Of a stretch of DNA of 64,000 bases, positions 13,020 through 61,648 are shown piece after piece. Origin of the DNA: Flavivirga sp. 57AJ16 (lineage in GTDB: Bacteria; Bacteroidota; Bacteroidia; Flavobacteriales; Flavobacteriaceae). The notes below the pieces were generated by a model. That model saw nothing but the letters and a program-made list of their open reading frames with translations, did no database searches and was not told the origin of the DNA. The position numbers and the translations under genes were made by a program. The first letter of the stretch is position 1, and each line of letters opens with the position of its first letter. The stretch is from assembly GCF_028736925.1 (NCBI RefSeq), contig NZ_JAQZAT010000001.1, positions 372,001-436,000 on the forward strand, written 5' to 3'.

Positions 13020-16000
13020 TTAATGTTTTTGTATAAACAATTTGGTACTTACATCATCAAAAACAATTTCTATACCATTATCTAATTTGTCAATAATTTC
13101 AAGTTCATTGGTTAACGTTTCCGATTTAATATAGGTCATATTTGCATTAACAGCATTTATAACATGGTCATCTTTTTGAAGCCTTACATCAATTCTATCT
13201 GTGACTTCAAACCCTGAATCTTTACGCAGATTTTGTATCCGATTAATTAGTTCTCTCGCGATACCTTCCTTTCGTAAATCATCAGATATTGTAACATCTA
13301 AAGCCACTGTTAACGATCCTTCGTTTGCAACCAACCAACCTTCAATATCTTGAGATGTAATCTCTACATCTTCAAGCCCTAAAGTAATATTTTTTCCATT
13401 AATTTCAACATCTAAAATACCATTTTGTTCAATTTTTTTAATATCGTCAGAATTAAGGGCTTTAATCGTGTTGGCAATTAGTTTCATTTCTTTACCAAAA
13501 CGTGGTCCAAGCGCTTTAAAATTGGGCTTTATCTGCTTTACCAGGATCTCTGAAGCCTCTTCTAAGAGCTCAACACTTTTAACATTTACTTCATGTTTTA
13601 TTAACTCCGACACAGCCAATATCTCTTCTTTTTGTTGATCACTATCTACAGGGATCATTATTTTTTGGAGTGGTTGGCGCACTTTTATTTTTTCCTTTGC
13701 TCTTAACGATAAAACCAATGATGATATTGTTTGAGCGCTTTCCATTTTTCGTTCTAAACTTTTATCGACAAAAGCTTCATTGTAAATGGGAAAGTTTGCT
13801 AAATGGACACTTTCAAATGGTTCTTTTTGGGTAGCCGAATTTAAATCCAAATACAGTCTGTCCATAAAAAATGGTGCTATGGGTGCTCCTAACTTAGCAA
13901 TAGCAACCATACAGGTATAAAGTGTTTGGTATGCCGATATTTTATCTTGTTGGTAATCCCCTTTCCAAAAACGTCTTCTGCTTAAACGAACAAACCAGTT
14001 ACTTAAATAGTCTTGCGTGAAATCCGAAATAGCACGTGCTGCTTTTGTAGGCTCATAATCTGCATAAAATGCATCTACTTTCTTTATTAATGTATGCAAT
14101 TCAGACAAAATCCAACGGTCTATTTCAGGGCGATCTTTTAAAGCTATATCTGCTTCAGAATAATTAAAGTTATCTAAATTAGTATACAGGGTAAAGAACG
14201 AATACGTATTATAAAGGGTCCCAAAAAACTTGCGTTTTACTTCTTCAATACCTTCTAAATCGAATTTTAAATTGTCCCAAGGATTTGCATTGCTAATCAT
14301 ATACCAACGTGTCGCATCTGCTCCATAATTCCCTAAGGTTTCAAACGGATCGACAGCATTTCCTAAACGCTTCGACATTTTCTGTCCGTTTTTGTCTAAT
14401 ACCAATCCATTAGACACCACACTTTTGTAAGCCACAGAATCGAAAACCATCGTTCCAATAGCGTGCAATGTATAGAACCAGCCTCTTGTTTGATCAACGC
14501 CTTCTGCTATAAAATCTGCTGGAAAAGTTGTCCCCTTATCAATTAAATCTGCATTTTCAAACGGGTAGTGCCACTGTGCATAAGGCATAGAGCCAGAATC
14601 GAACCACACATCTATCAAGTCGCTTTCTCTAAACATTTTTTGACCTGATGGTGATACCAATACGATAGCATCCACAATGTTTTTATGTAAATCTATTTTA
14701 GCGTAGTTTTCTTCGGAATTGTTTCCCACTTCAAAATCCTCAAAGATATCCTTTGCTAAAACACCTGCAGAAACAGCTTTATCCATTTCTGATTTTAATT
14801 CTTCAACAGACCCAATACAAATTTCTTCTTTACCATCTTCGGTTCTCCAAATTGGCAATGGAATGCCCCAATAACGTGAACGGGATAAATTCCAATCGTT
14901 AGCATTGGCTAACCAGTTACCAAATCGTCCTTCGCCCGTACTTTTTGGTTTCCAATTAATAGTGTTGTTAAGTTCGTGCATACGATCTTTAACATCGGTT
15001 ACTTTAATAAACCAGGAATCTAAAGGATAATATAAAATGGGTTTATCGGTTCTCCAACAGTTTGGATAGCTGTGCTTATATTTTTCGACCTTAAAGGCTT
15101 TATTTTCTTCTTTTAATTTGATAGCAATCTCAACATCAACAGAACGCTCTGGTGCTTCCCCTTCATTGTAATACTCATTCTTTACGTACTTGCCTGCGTA
15201 TTCTCCCATTTCTGGTCTAAAACGTCCTTGTAAATCTACAAGTGGCACCAAATTACCATTTTCATCTTTTACCAACATAGGTGGTACTTCCGGTTTTGCC
15301 TGTTTTGCAACTAAGGCATCATCTGCCCCAAAAGTAGGTGCCGTATGTACAATTCCCGTACCATCTTCCGTCGTTACGAAATCACCGGAAATGACCCTAA
15401 AAGCATTTTCTGGATGGTCGTTTGGCAAAGCATAGGGTAATAATTGCTCGTACTTTATGCCTACTAAATCATCCCCTTTACATTCTGCAATGACTTGAAA
15501 AGGTATTTTTTTATCTCCCGATTTATAACTTAATAATTCTGATCTATCTTCTACTTGATTGAATTTTCCAGAGAATTGATAATCGACCAGTTTCTTAGCT
15601 AAAACCACTTTAATTGGCTCGAATGTATATTGATTATAGGTTTCAACTAAAACGTAATCAATTTTTGGTCCAACGGTTAAGGCAGTATTACTCGGTAATG
15701 TCCAAGGTGTGGTTGTCCAAGCTAGGAAAAAGGCCTCCCCCGACCCCTCCAAAGGAGGAGAGAGCTCAAACGCATTTGCTATTGAGTTTTCAATTCCCCC
15801 TTTGGGGGTTAGGGGGCTTTTAAACTGAGCAACCACCGTTGTATCGGTAACATCTTGATAGGTTCCCGGTTGATTTAACTCATGAGAACTCAAACCTGTT
15901 CCTGCTTTTGGTGAATATGGCTGTATGGTATACCCTTTATAAAGCAACGCTTTATTATAAATTTCCTTTAATAACCACCAAACACTCTCCATATACTTAG

Positions 16001-16463
16001 GCTCGTAGGTAATATACGGATCGTCCATATCTACCCAGTAGCCCATTTTTTGAGTGAGATCGTTCCAAACATCGGTATAACGCATCACAGCTTTACGACA
16101 AGCTGCATTATAATCTTCTACCGAAATCGTTTTACCTATATCTTCCTTAGTGATACCTAATTCTTTTTCAACTCCCAATTCAATAGGCAACCCGTGAGTA
16201 TCCCACCCCGCTTTACGCTTTACTTGGTAACCTTTCATGGTTTTGTAACGTGGGAAAATATCTTTTATAGCGCGTGCTAAAACGTGATGTACTCCAGGAA
16301 GTCCATTTGCCGATGGTGGCCCTTCATAAAACACATACGATTCTTTACCCTCTCGGGTAGAAACACTTTTTTCAAAGATGTTATTTTCTTGCCAATATTG
16401 TAGTATCTCATTTGCCACATTTGGCAAGTCAAGTCCTTTATATTCAGGAAATTTAGTGCTCAT
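13020..16463 (-). CDS. ileS: Isoleucyl-tRNA synthetase (long, eukaryote-like type)
   Basis: A class I synthetase of 1147 residues, charging tRNA-Ile. The HIGH-equivalent motif is NGLPGVHHVLAR (about 53-64), the KMSKR loop is GQKMSKRLGNAVDPF, the CP1 editing domain contains LAWTTTPWTLPSNTALTVGP, and a long C-terminal anticodon-binding region follows. The length and motif form are those of the second IleS type. Residues of about 215-244 are an in-frame insert starting KSPLTPKGG and ending LEGSGEAF, encoded by a palindromic repeat at 15732-15821, just before the editing-site motif. It leads an operon with the dksA-like gene and perhaps lspA. The start gives the expected MSTKFPEYKGLDLP. Confidence 0.97.
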   Translation of the reverse strand: MSTKFPEYKGLDLPNVANEILQYWQENNIFEKSVSTREGKESYVFYEGPPSANGLPGVHHVLARAIKDIFPRYKTMKGYQVKRKAGWDTHGLPIELGVEKELGITKEDIGKTISVEDYNAACRKAVMRYTDVWNDLTQKMGYWVDMDDPYITYEPKYMESVWWLLKEIYNKALLYKGYTIQPYSPKAGTGLSSHELNQPGTYQDVTDTTVVAQFKSPLTPKGGIENSIANAFELSPPLEGSGEAFFLAWTTTPWTLPSNTALTVGPKIDYVLVETYNQYTFEPIKVVLAKKLVDYQFSGKFNQVEDRSELLSYKSGDKKIPFQVIAECKGDDLVGIKYEQLLPYALPNDHPENAFRVISGDFVTTEDGTGIVHTAPTFGADDALVAKQAKPEVPPMLVKDENGNLVPLVDLQGRFRPEMGEYAGKYVKNEYYNEGEAPERSVDVEIAIKLKEENKAFKVEKYKHSYPNCWRTDKPILYYPLDSWFIKVTDVKDRMHELNNTINWKPKSTGEGRFGNWLANANDWNLSRSRYWGIPLPIWRTEDGKEEICIGSVEELKSEMDKAVSAGVLAKDIFEDFEVGNNSEENYAKIDLHKNIVDAIVLVSPSGQKMFRESDLIDVWFDSGSMPYAQWHYPFENADLIDKGTTFPADFIAEGVDQTRGWFYTLHAIGTMVFDSVAYKSVVSNGLVLDKNGQKMSKRLGNAVDPFETLGNYGADATRWYMISNANPWDNLKFDLEGIEEVKRKFFGTLYNTYSFFTLYTNLDNFNYSEADIALKDRPEIDRWILSELHTLIKKVDAFYADYEPTKAARAISDFTQDYLSNWFVRLSRRRFWKGDYQQDKISAYQTLYTCMVAIAKLGAPIAPFFMDRLYLDLNSATQKEPFESVHLANFPIYNEAFVDKSLERKMESAQTISSLVLSLRAKEKIKVRQPLQKIMIPVDSDQQKEEILAVSELIKHEVNVKSVELLEEASEILVKQIKPNFKALGPRFGKEMKLIANTIKALNSDDIKKIEQNGILDVEINGKNITLGLEDVEITSQDIEGWLVANEGSLTVALDVTISDDLRKEGIARELINRIQNLRKDSGFEVTDRIDVRLQKDDHVINAVNANMTYIKSETLTNELEIIDKLDNGIEIVFDDVSTKLFIQKH
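15732..15821. repeat. Palindromic repeat inserted in frame within ileS
   Basis: Two GC-rich arms face each other: GGCCTCCCCCGACCCCTCC followed by AAAGGAGG, and CCCCCTTTGGGGG followed by TTAGGGGGCTTTT. About 35 bases of ordinary composition separate them. The unit is about 90 bp, a multiple of three, and is translated as about 30 residues of IleS. The C-runs are out of character with the surrounding AT-rich gene. It resembles the mobile palindromic repeats that are usually intergenic in Bacteroidota and, by analogy, the protein-coding palindromic elements of Rickettsia. Confidence 0.8.
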
Positions 16464-50612: not shown

Positions 50613-50636
50613 TTTATTTCGATTTAGATACCTGTA

Positions 50637-50729
50637 TACTGAAATACCGAAATACCGAAATACCGAAACAAGTTCGGCACAGGCAAGTTCGGCACAGGCA
50701 AGTTCGGCACAGGCGAGTTCGGCACAGGC
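50637..50729. repeat. Composite tandem repeat (8-bp and 15-bp units), locus 1
   Basis: Three copies of GAAATACC (50641-50664), then GAAAC, then four copies of a 15-bp unit AAGTTCGGCACAGGC (50670-50729; the fourth begins with G). The same composite occurs at 57974-58046 and, reversed, at 60938-60994, with different numbers of 15-bp units. It lies between arsR and the DUF6428 gene. Frames across it encode QVRHRQVRH-type repeats, which are artefacts. Confidence 0.9.
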
Positions 50730-51796: not shown

Positions 51797-52003
51797 CTAC
51801 TGTGTGTACACAAATAATGCACAATAAAAAGATTAGACACGAATGGCACAAATTTTCACTAATTATTCTGTCTATTGACAGATTTCAAGCCTATATAGTC
51901 TAGGGATTCTTATTCATGCGGTGTCCAATCTATTCCATAATGTATTGGATTCGTGTGAATTTGTGCCATTCGTGTCTTTTTTATAGATGTGTACTCACGG
52001 TAG
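51797..52003. repeat. Family D MITE-like element, copy 1, with 9-bp target duplication
   Basis: Ends CTACTGTGTGTACACA (51797) and TGTACTCACGGTAG (ending 52003) are inverted repeats; both flanks carry TTTTTAAAA, a 9-bp direct duplication (51788-51796, 52004-52012). The interior contains inverted ACACGAATGGCACAAATT and its reverse. The element is also present, in the opposite orientation and with an extra insert, at 61151-61648. Non-coding. The remaining sequence of this 554-bp gap (51621-51787, 52013-52115) is AT-rich without visible features. Confidence 0.85.
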
Positions 52004-52115
52004 TTTTTAAAAGTGAGGAACAAGTCTGATTCATGTTTCGAATACTGTTTTAAATTTTAGTCATAATTTAATATTTCACACACAACTAACTTTTAGGATT
52101 GATCCCTTTTTCCAA

Positions 52116-54575: not shown

Positions 54576-54650
54576 ACGTTTAAATTTTAGGGTTCTACCA
54601 TTAATTGTATAGGTAAATTGATTAACGATTTTAGAATTCGCTACTTCAAA

Positions 54651-55074
54651 ATAACTTCACATAATTTTTATGTTTTAAAATGTGTTTGTTATTTCACAGA
54701 GCTTCACTGAGGTTTCACTGAATTACACAGAGAAAAATCGTCAAAATATGCCATTCATAAATCGTTATTCGTTAATCTCTATTCGTTAATTAAAAAATAG
54801 CTTCCACAACATTCGTGGTAGAACCAATTATAGTTATTATTTGACATTAAATTAATTATAAGATAACTTCACATAATTTTTATGCTTTAAAATGTGTTTG
54901 TTATTTCACAGAGCTTCACTGAGGTTTCACTGAATTACACAGAGAAAAATCGTCAAAATATGCCATTCATAAATCGTTATTCGTTAATCTCTATTCGTTA
55001 ATTAAAAAATAGCTTCCACAACATTCGTGGTAGAACCAATTATAGTTATTATTTGACATTAAATTAATTATAAG
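54651..55074. repeat. Tandem duplication of a 212-bp non-coding unit
   Basis: Two copies in direct order: 54651-54862 and 54863-55074. They start ATAACTTCACATAATTTTTA and differ at very few bases (one noted: T versus C near the start). Each contains CACAGAGCTTCACTGAGGTT and a TTCGTTAAT repeated motif. No gene. The near identity suggests a recent duplication. Confidence 0.95.
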
Positions 55075-57973: not shown

Positions 57974-58046
57974 ATACTGACATACCGAAATACCGAAATA
58001 CCGAAACAAGTTCGGCACAGGCAAGTTCGGCACAGGCAAGTTCGGC
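57974..58046. repeat. Composite tandem repeat, locus 2
   Basis: TACTGACATACC followed by two GAAATACC units, GAAAC, two full 15-bp units AAGTTCGGCACAGGC (58008-58037) and nine bases of a third. Same structure as at 50637 and 60938. It lies between the dehydrogenase start and the cupin stop, in what should be the dehydrogenase promoter region. Confidence 0.9.
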
Positions 58047-60925: not shown

Positions 60926-61007
60926 ATCCCGCTTTATGTGCCGAACTTGCCTGTGCCGAACTTGTTTCGGTATTTCGGTATTTCGGTATTTCAGGATCCA
61001 GCGGGAT
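60926..61007. repeat. Composite tandem repeat, locus 3, inside a hairpin
   Basis: On the minus strand: three GAAATACC-type units, GAAAC, one full AAGTTCGGCACAGGC and a partial second 15-bp unit (60938-60994). The whole block is enclosed by ATCCCGCT (60926-60933) and AGCGGGAT (61000-61007), which are perfect inverted repeats. Locus 1 and 2 lack this frame. It lies upstream of rsmA. Confidence 0.88.
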
Positions 61008-61150
61008 CTCAGGTTTAATACCTTTATATTACAATATGCGAAGATATGAAACTTAAAATCGATGGCGTGATGTCTTTTGGGGTTTGTTTTTAGTTCTTGT
61101 TTTTTTAAGCACCATAAAATCATATAAAAGAAGCCTTCGCTTATTTCAAA

Positions 61151-61648
61151 CTACCGTGAGTACACATCTATAAAAAAGACACGAATGGCACAAATTCACA
61201 CGAATCCAATTCTTTACGGAATAGATTGGACACAGCATGAATAAGAGTCCCTAGACCATATAGGCTTGAAATCTGTCAATAGTCTGAATAATTAACGAGA
61301 GTTCGATTTAAAACCTGTCTGCCGACCAGGCAGGCAAGGGAGTTTTTAACAATAAATTCACTAATAAAGCGATTGTCGCCTTGAGCCTATCGACTTTTAG
61401 TTTATACTGAGCCTTTCGACTTCGCTCAAGATAAACTATAGTCGAAGTACTCAAGATAAACTAAAGTCGAAAGGTCATTAAAACCTGCTATTTAAATGGG
61501 TTTCGACTGCGCTCCTGACAACCAAAATTAAATTATTGATAGTCTGTTTAATAATATTATGTTTACATCGAACTCACGTTAATTAGTGAAAATTTGTGTC
61601 ATTCGTGTCCAATCTTTTTATTGTGCTTTATTTGTGTACTCACGGTAG
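61151..61648. repeat. Family D MITE-like element, copy 2, carrying a nested element
   Basis: Ends CTACCGTGAGTACACA and TGTGTACTCACGGTAG are near-perfect inverted repeats; both flanks are TTATTTCAAA (61141-61150 and 61649-61658), a 10-bp direct duplication. The left half matches the inverted form of 51797-52003 (CACACGAATCCAAT, GGAATAGATTGGACAC, CTATATAGGCTTGAAATCTG). A second element of about 290 bp interrupts it. The whole fills most of the 976-bp gap between rsmA and the DUF4286 gene; 61659-61827 has no visible gene. Confidence 0.88.
61292..61582. repeat. Family E element nested within family D copy 2
   Basis: Inverted ends TTAACGAGAGTTCGAT and ATCGAACTCACGTTAA differ at one base. Compared with the uninterrupted family D copy, AATT (or TAATTA) is duplicated at the junctions, as expected for insertion. 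The interior has a GC-rich hairpin around CTGCCGACCAGGCAG and tandem-like repeats of CTCAAGATAAACTA and AGTCGAA. Related ends flank the IS110 region at 47753 and 49516-49534. Confidence 0.75.

Follow-up and report, generated by a model that had tools for sequence, protein, structure and literature searches.

Translated palindromes in the isoleucyl-tRNA synthetase gene of a Flavivirga strain and their likeness to the palindromes that border in-frame DUF559 nuclease inserts in Bacteroidota

The window, by which we mean the whole 64,000-nucleotide stretch of Flavivirga sp. 57AJ16 DNA that was analyzed, contains the only full ileS match in this genome; the four other matches are weak pieces that lie in ORFs of 935 and 1129 aa. 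A preliminary description of the window had claimed that palindromic repeats are translated in frame within this essential gene, and the uninterrupted ORF bears this out (Table 1). On the coding strand, the order of elements is AAGCCCCCTAACCCCCAAAGGGGGAA, spacer, TCCTCCTTTGGAGGGGTCGGGGGAGGC. Both palindromes are GC-rich, and their tags point outwards with the spacer between them. Leading up to AWTTTPW, a conserved motif of the editing domain, the protein encoded here reads AQFK-SPLTPKGGIENSIANAFELSPPLEGSGEAFFL. Other repeats in the window are listed in the same table.

Table 1. Features of the ileS gene and other repeats, in positions of the window
Feature	Position	Strand	Description
ileS, isoleucyl-tRNA synthetase	13020..16463	(-)	1147 aa; uninterrupted ORF; Pfam tRNA-synt_1 and Anticodon_1
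First palindromic arm	15796..15819	(-)	AAGCCCCCTAA and hairpin CCCCCAAAGGGGG; translated SPLTPKGG
Spacer between the arms	15761..15795	(-)	approximately IENSIANAFEL; S(I/V)xxAF core
Second palindromic arm	15733..15760	(-)	hairpin CCTCCTTTGGAGG and GGTCGGGGGAGGC; opposite facing; translated SPPLEGSGEA
Site A	15723..15818	(-)	codons 216-247; loop ending at AWTTTPW
Hairpin cores of ileS	15796..15808 and 15746..15758	(+)
Tandem duplication	54648..55071		212 bp; copies 99% alike
Inverted repeat pair	51851..52006 and 61148..61303		156 nt; 92% complementary; about 9 kb apart
Tandem 15-nt units, three places	50636..50726, 57974..58046 and 60937..61001		AAGTTCGGCACAGGC

When palindrome matches with at most two mismatches are counted across the 64 kb, just the two in ileS are found, against an expectation of 0.60. 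Since two or more matches also occur in 10 of 100 shuffles of the window, the count within the window alone is not decisive. Across the whole genome (4.92 Mb in 52 contigs), the same threshold yields 70 matches, compared with 24 for a reversed control pattern. The RNA fold of the palindromic stretch of ileS has an energy of -45.2 kcal/mol (z = -2.75). A search of the genome with the stretch of approximately 90 bp returns nine other matches, each of them to one arm or the other, and the middle of the spacer (query positions 64-87) is covered by none of the nine. Because recurrence elsewhere in the genome is limited to the arms, we reject a single repeated 90-bp unit. Thus, the two hairpin arms that had been described are present, but they do not form one unit; rather, two palindromes flank a spacer that has no repeats in the genome. 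A further in-frame palindrome of this genome, translated NPSPLGRSGGAYG, lies in a 735-aa ORF that is cut by the end of its locus (L119, G000:C34:141800-144800).

An AlphaFold model of the IleRS, which is of moderate quality (mean pLDDT 72.4, pTM 0.55, 19 sequences), places the insert with low confidence between predicted strands at residues 205-215 and 243-250, and a short helix is predicted at residues 227-231 in the spacer. The pLDDT of 54-59 at residues 221-240 agrees, weakly, with the loop that the preliminary description had suggested modelling.

The preliminary description had also proposed a comparison with the IleS of close relatives. In the 11 other Flavivirga, the site-A loop has 19 residues (for example, ANPDSLPDFLQNEGDIYFM) as compared with 32 in the window, and the palindromes are missing from the site in all 11, indicating that the feature is not ancestral. 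A 17-aa stretch of the relatives, ANPDSLPDFLQNEGDIY, stands opposite 30 aa of the window. The feature is therefore a loop replacement with a net gain of 13 residues: the roughly 30 residues said to precede AWTTTPW are there, but they are not 30 residues added to the protein. Among 96 distinct site-A loops, a sample that is not random (24 were picked up by a search that ranked loops on their similarity to that of the window, another 16 belong to DUF559-bearing loci, and unusual loops are enriched), 52 have the 19-residue form and 10, the window included, have a GC hairpin, leaving 86 without one. The hairpin test overlooks degenerate palindromes (L056, L211, L213 and L216), the loop pattern missed one loop that was read by eye (L215, in G194), and 5 of the 20 ileS stretches of one set yielded no loop. 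On another reading, flavobacterial IleRS would have had an aligned segment here from the start and the palindrome would be incidental to it, which would agree with the variable length of the loop at this place in the IleRS that were read. Given the shorter loop of the 11 congeners and the large numbers of 19-residue and hairpin-free loops, we consider it highly improbable and reject it; a segment of equal length throughout flavobacterial IleS was not found.

When the window's peptide was searched against 397 family genomes, 385 of them gave a match. The four that score highest (E up to 9.4e-25) are G000, which is the window's own genome, and G376, G207 and G083, all with the same cassette. Related or degenerate cassettes are found at site A in G331, G435, G204 and G294, and other site-A palindromes that lack the S(I/V)xxAF core are found in G194, G026, G359 and G095. 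The core is present in 10 of the 96 site-A loops (the window's and nine others), six of which have a GC hairpin and four an apparently degenerate one, as judged by eye. In an alignment, this core may correspond to the native SLPDFL helix, in which case the window's two palindromes may just bracket host sequence. Such a pattern could also arise if the window's loop were an alternative ileS allele, composed of palindrome, S(I/V)xxAF helix and palindrome, that ordinary homologous recombination of ileS had carried from genus to genus, its palindromes being old and inert. In addition to the recurring core, this reading has in its favor a patchy distribution, with the cassette in 1 of the 12 Flavivirga and an ordinary site-A loop in G052 and G179, which are congeners of G331 and G376. 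However, identity between the G000 ileS and that of other Flavivirga falls at residues 274-373 and is normal directly beside the loop, so any exchanged tract would probably be very short. The allele reading, which we judge to be unlikely, also leaves unexplained the core-less site-A palindromes and a DUF559 insert at site A of another IleRS (L313) that is described below.

Two isolates of other genera, Salegentibacter (S. echinorum, L301) and Galbibacter sp. (L305), carry a palindrome cassette at site A and a DUF559 domain at a second ileS site, site C. An assembly artefact is an unlikely source of the window's feature, since like cassettes are present at site A in other genera, these isolates included. 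At yet another place in ileS, site B (approximately residue 310), 8 of 21 aligned IleRS (L040, L041, L045, L046, L047, L049, L055 and L058) contain translated, in-frame repeats of a different family, with the peptide NLPAGKAG or variants of it.

Site C is the loop before PADFIAEG, and in G003, G004 and G009 it holds approximately 140 aa, in frame and between repeat peptides, that Pfam identifies as a DUF559 (PF04480) nuclease domain. The IleRS ORF reaches 1277 aa in G009 and in F. rizhaonensis (L289). A full DUF559 insert, confirmed by Pfam, lies exactly at site A in the IleRS of L313 (Bacteroidales UBA5266), which reads AQFK-ISSPSKSPQRGD...LKVSPLGGDLEGAYLL-AWTTTPW and has a palindrome at either end. 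Among the 150 DUF559 matches listed for the family, none is at ileS site A, and Pfam finds no DUF559 match in the window's ileS. The window's own genome encodes DUF559 in frame inside leuS (a 1129-aa ORF) and recG (an 853-aa ORF); a third domain is free-standing, and the fourth match, which is weak, corresponds to an ORF of its own, of 168 aa. The leuS of this genome (L100, G000:C1:245500-251500) also contains two further in-frame palindromes, SSPLGRLGGA and SSPPSEGLGEAS, beside the DUF559 domain.

A DUF559 match is present in 188 of the 397 family genomes. Out of a larger total, 150 matches were listed, and 60 of these sit in an open frame at least 300 aa long, which is our definition of a nested domain and one under which out-of-frame inserts would count as free-standing. 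Forty-nine of the 60 are internal, in LeuRS (25), MetH (11, two of which share one protein), RecG (11) and IleRS (2), and the remaining 11 are terminal fusions: nine genomes have the domain in front of a HemD-like ORF (L194-L202), and two have it at the end of HisD (L203-L204). The two domains that share a protein lie at two sites of a single 1159-aa metH ORF (L151, in G284). Beside the HisD fusion of L204, a HisC-like ORF also has repeat-like peptides. The leuS of G435 (L183) is open only from approximately 90 residues before its DUF559 domain.

We also scanned named genomes, in which the best 80 of 522 loci hold 81 DUF559 domains: 43 in RecG, 20 in IleRS, 4 in ValRS, 3 in LeuRS, 1 in MetH, 7 nested in hosts not identified by motif, 2 truncated at contig ends and 1 free, counts that are not frequencies because these are the best 80 of 522 and the query alignment was built from nested copies. 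Hosts were named by motif, and Pfam confirmed one of each named kind. Of the seven unnamed hosts, three were identified by Pfam: one is a PurL-type FGAR-AT, one a SpoIID protein, and one a LeuRS in which the insert follows the editing domain; by eye, two of the others are PurL-type-like and two LeuRS-like. The taxa among these best 80 loci include Flavobacteriaceae, Prolixibacteraceae, Bacteroidales, Prevotella, Dysgonomonas and others. Hosts in Bacteroidota include leuS, ileS (two sites), valS, recG, metH (two sites) and purL-like genes. Nineteen of the 20 IleRS domains among the best 80 loci are at site C and one, that of L313, is at site A; the DUF559 domain ends 18-66 residues upstream of TTRPDT in the 25 LeuRS and sits before ATTRPET in the 4 ValRS. 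We take TTRPDT and ATTRPET to be the counterparts of the AWTTTPW of IleRS.

Comparison of the 12 Flavivirga reveals that empty, full and remnant alleles coexist at recG. Four are full (G000, G004, G005 and G006), and three are empty, reading KKNTS or KKNMS (G002, G008 and G011). The recG of G003 has two palindromes without a nuclease, a 28-aa remnant (KKGGPPQSSQREEAKKSLPSGEISGASI) with the same architecture as the window's ileS insert, and a single palindrome is found in the remaining four, intact in G001 and G007 and degenerate in G009 and G010. At metH site 2, a DUF559 domain is present in G284 and G447, a solo palindrome in G245, and neither in G334. The leuS site is filled with DUF559 in 6 of the 12 Flavivirga; four loops of the six unfilled genes were read, several with unrelated repeats, and the emptiness of G002 and G003 rests on alignment coordinates. 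Site C of ileS is filled in 3 of the 12. Presence and absence at a fixed site, as expected of a homing element, is thus found among these 12 genomes at leuS, recG and ileS site C. Unrelated repeats (QPELVPGSHDEAPKQVRND, CHSECSEESH, TERHSELNSES and a perfect AT-rich palindrome) occur in loops that host DUF559 elsewhere, namely at ileS site C (L016 and L026) and at the leuS site (L252, L246 and L249).

The leuS inserts have a history apart from that of their host gene in three of the eight pairs tested (15 pairs are possible), in which the inserts are far more alike than the hosts (p below 1e-5); the other five pairs give p values of 0.02 to 0.84 and no strong signal. Third-position differences for G005-G008 number 15 of 160 in the insert versus 312 of 862 in the host (p = 6.7e-13), and the corresponding values are 31 of 160 versus 358 of 862 for G000-G005 and 30 of 165 versus 314 of 867 for G000-G008. 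Within G005-G008, the closest pair, the nuclease domain is 94-100% identical and high identity extends into the right end, where it falls to 79%; the left arm, at 89-90%, matches no better than the adjoining host sequence does. Of the 13 pairs that gave finite values, seven have a lower dS in the insert than in the host and six a higher one, indicating that the histories differ in both directions. The dN/dS ratio is 0.02-0.14 for the leuS insert (13 finite values from 15 pairs) and 0.07-0.09 for the ileS insert (3 pairs), and the inserts compared in these two genes are under purifying selection. The recG insert mostly tracks its host (Mantel r = 0.66, n = 42, with 0 of 999 permutations as high).

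A GC hairpin (stem of at least 5, loop of 3-5) lies within 150 nt upstream of 100, downstream of 105 and on both sides of 86 of 129 nested DUF559 domains, a total of 51 + 78 from two overlapping sets in which shared loci (for example, L041/L289, L186/L312 and L188/L320) are counted twice. Control windows of the same ORFs contain such a hairpin in 78 of 1535 cases, corresponding to Fisher odds ratios of 64 and 82. For nine free-standing DUF559 genes, within 250 nt, there is one upstream hairpin, of another sequence, and none downstream. The metH inserts of L151 end in AGCCCCCCAACCCCCAAAGGGGGAG and CTCCCCCTTTGGGGGCGGGGGGGGCT, which have the form of the window's arms, and in general the window's palindromes are the same in form as those that close off nested DUF559 inserts. 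Housekeeping enzymes of Bacteroidota contain DUF559 inserts that are in frame, lie at fixed sites and have a palindrome at their ends.

Palindromes of this kind, solo and paired, are also found outside long ORFs, and the window's genome has seven Y1_Tnp matches. Together with the several unrelated repeat families that use the same loops, and with the intragenic REPs that are described in several species in PMC3733652, these observations are what one might expect if the palindromes were ordinary REP-like repeats moved by a different enzyme, perhaps a Y1 (RAYT) transposase. In that case, they would reach permissive loops by chance, and DUF559 would be a captured passenger, caught between two repeats. 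We regard this as possible but rather improbable. This palindrome is absent within 500 nt of each of the seven Y1_Tnp loci, one of which has another hairpin; the association of the palindromes with nested DUF559 is strong; and a passenger is not predicted to be under purifying selection or to have its own history at leuS.

DUF559 is still labelled as being of unknown function in Pfam. A profile built from five domains has two clear matches among solved structures, to the endonuclease-like 3hrl (E = 1.3e-24) and to 3r3p, a Mobile intron protein (E = 4.2e-6). We take 3r3p to be the EDxHD homing endonuclease I-Bth0305I, and presumably the EDxHD/DUF559-type nuclease domain is linked to Vsr. These profile matches show a relation to known homing endonucleases. 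Across 63 DUF559 domains, the aspartates of I-x-D-F and E-x-D-G are invariant, and the glutamate, the glycine and a following histidine are kept in at least 90%. The host reading frame continues through the inserts, which measure approximately 150 aa in recG and 156-214 aa in leuS, the nuclease domain being most of the insert. Pfam finds no Hint or intein family in 11 DUF559-bearing proteins (nine nested, L313 included, and two terminal fusions), and a search of four loci (L100, L101, L039 and L009) at Rfam gathering thresholds gives no match to group I or group II intron RNA. An AlphaFold model of RecG with its DUF559 domain is of moderate quality (mean pLDDT 71.8, pTM 0.43, 23 sequences); a PDB fold search with it returned, in 50 rows, RecG and other helicase-type chains and none for the nuclease domain.

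Given that like palindromes end the in-frame DUF559 inserts of Bacteroidota, the window's feature is most likely a nuclease-less member of this family, either a scar or a non-autonomous relative. Our account of it, namely that an outward-facing pair of translated palindromes replaced an editing-domain loop of IleRS and belongs to the DUF559 family without the nuclease, is somewhat more probable than its negation. We infer that the ileS pair descends from a nuclease-bearing insert. No nuclease or trace of DUF559 was found in the feature, whose spacer carries another core and is not derived from DUF559, and we favor a scar or non-autonomous relative with the caution that the S(I/V)xxAF core urges.

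Homing appears to be the best mechanism in view of the fixed sites, the conserved neighboring motifs, the patchiness and the histories apart from the host. The DUF559 nuclease (Vsr/EDxHD-like) would cut an insert-less allele next to a conserved motif, and repair from a filled allele would copy the insert into the same site. Because nothing splices the inserts out, the survivors would be those in frame in permissive loops, in which the Pro/Gly-rich peptides encoded by the palindromes would serve as linkers from host enzyme to nuclease. The nuclease would later be lost, with one or two palindromes staying behind. DNA cleavage, homing and retention of the insert in the protein are steps that we infer.

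These elements may represent a new class of homing element, with an unspliced, in-frame Vsr/EDxHD-type nuclease, palindromic linkers, homing between species and palindromic scars, and we give this proposal an even chance of being correct. That its hosts would comprise LeuRS, IleRS, ValRS, RecG, MetH and PurL-type enzymes, with the inserts in surface loops, seems to us equally open to being right or wrong. In open-access PMC literature, no title or opening of an abstract that our searches returned describes DUF559 nested in such genes. If the proposal is true, loops of core enzymes have been repeatedly rewritten by a selfish gene, translated palindromes gain a concrete source and life cycle, and a testable prediction can be made about DUF559.

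Translated palindromes are known from Rickettsia, and the parallel drawn in the preliminary description captures part of what is found here. As with Rickettsia palindromic elements (RPEs), or intragenic REPs, short palindromes are translated in frame in conserved genes; the likeness to RPEs is one of description, and it leaves out the main point, which is that palindromes here also flank nuclease ORFs lying in frame at fixed sites, the DUF559 inserts of like genes. The intragenic REPs of R. conorii correspond to RPE-4 and RPE-6, according to PMC3733652. RAYT/REP systems likewise have GC palindromes, often in inverted pairs, that are tied to a flanking enzyme (PMC3733652). Here, in contrast, the enzyme would be the DUF559 nuclease, the palindrome being at none of the seven Y1 loci of the one genome searched.

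Among nuclease-based systems, the EDxHD (Vsr-like) homing endonucleases, of which I-Bth0305I is an example, would have a related nuclease domain, as judged from the 3r3p match. PMC3943268 describes such enzymes as phage-encoded, located in group I introns and equipped with long DNA-binding parts, whereas Rfam finds no intron RNA at four DUF559 loci. The WHO elements of yeasts resemble the inserts in homing without protein or RNA splicing and in replacing a piece of the host gene; according to PMC7282813, WHO genes lie downstream of FBA1, have their own transcription and encode an intein-type nuclease. The DUF559 inserts differ in being internal and in frame, and profile matches point to a different nuclease family. 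Inteins with homing endonucleases are similar in that a nuclease lies inside a conserved protein, beside conserved motifs, and is patchy among relatives. Unlike inteins, however, the DUF559 inserts lack Hint in the 11 proteins searched, and the nuclease is most of the insert. Homing nucleases are described in PMC3943268 and PMC7282813 as owing their persistence in conserved genes to removal by a self-splicing intron or intein; unspliced in-frame nucleases in LeuRS, IleRS, ValRS and RecG would show persistence as a tolerated extra domain.
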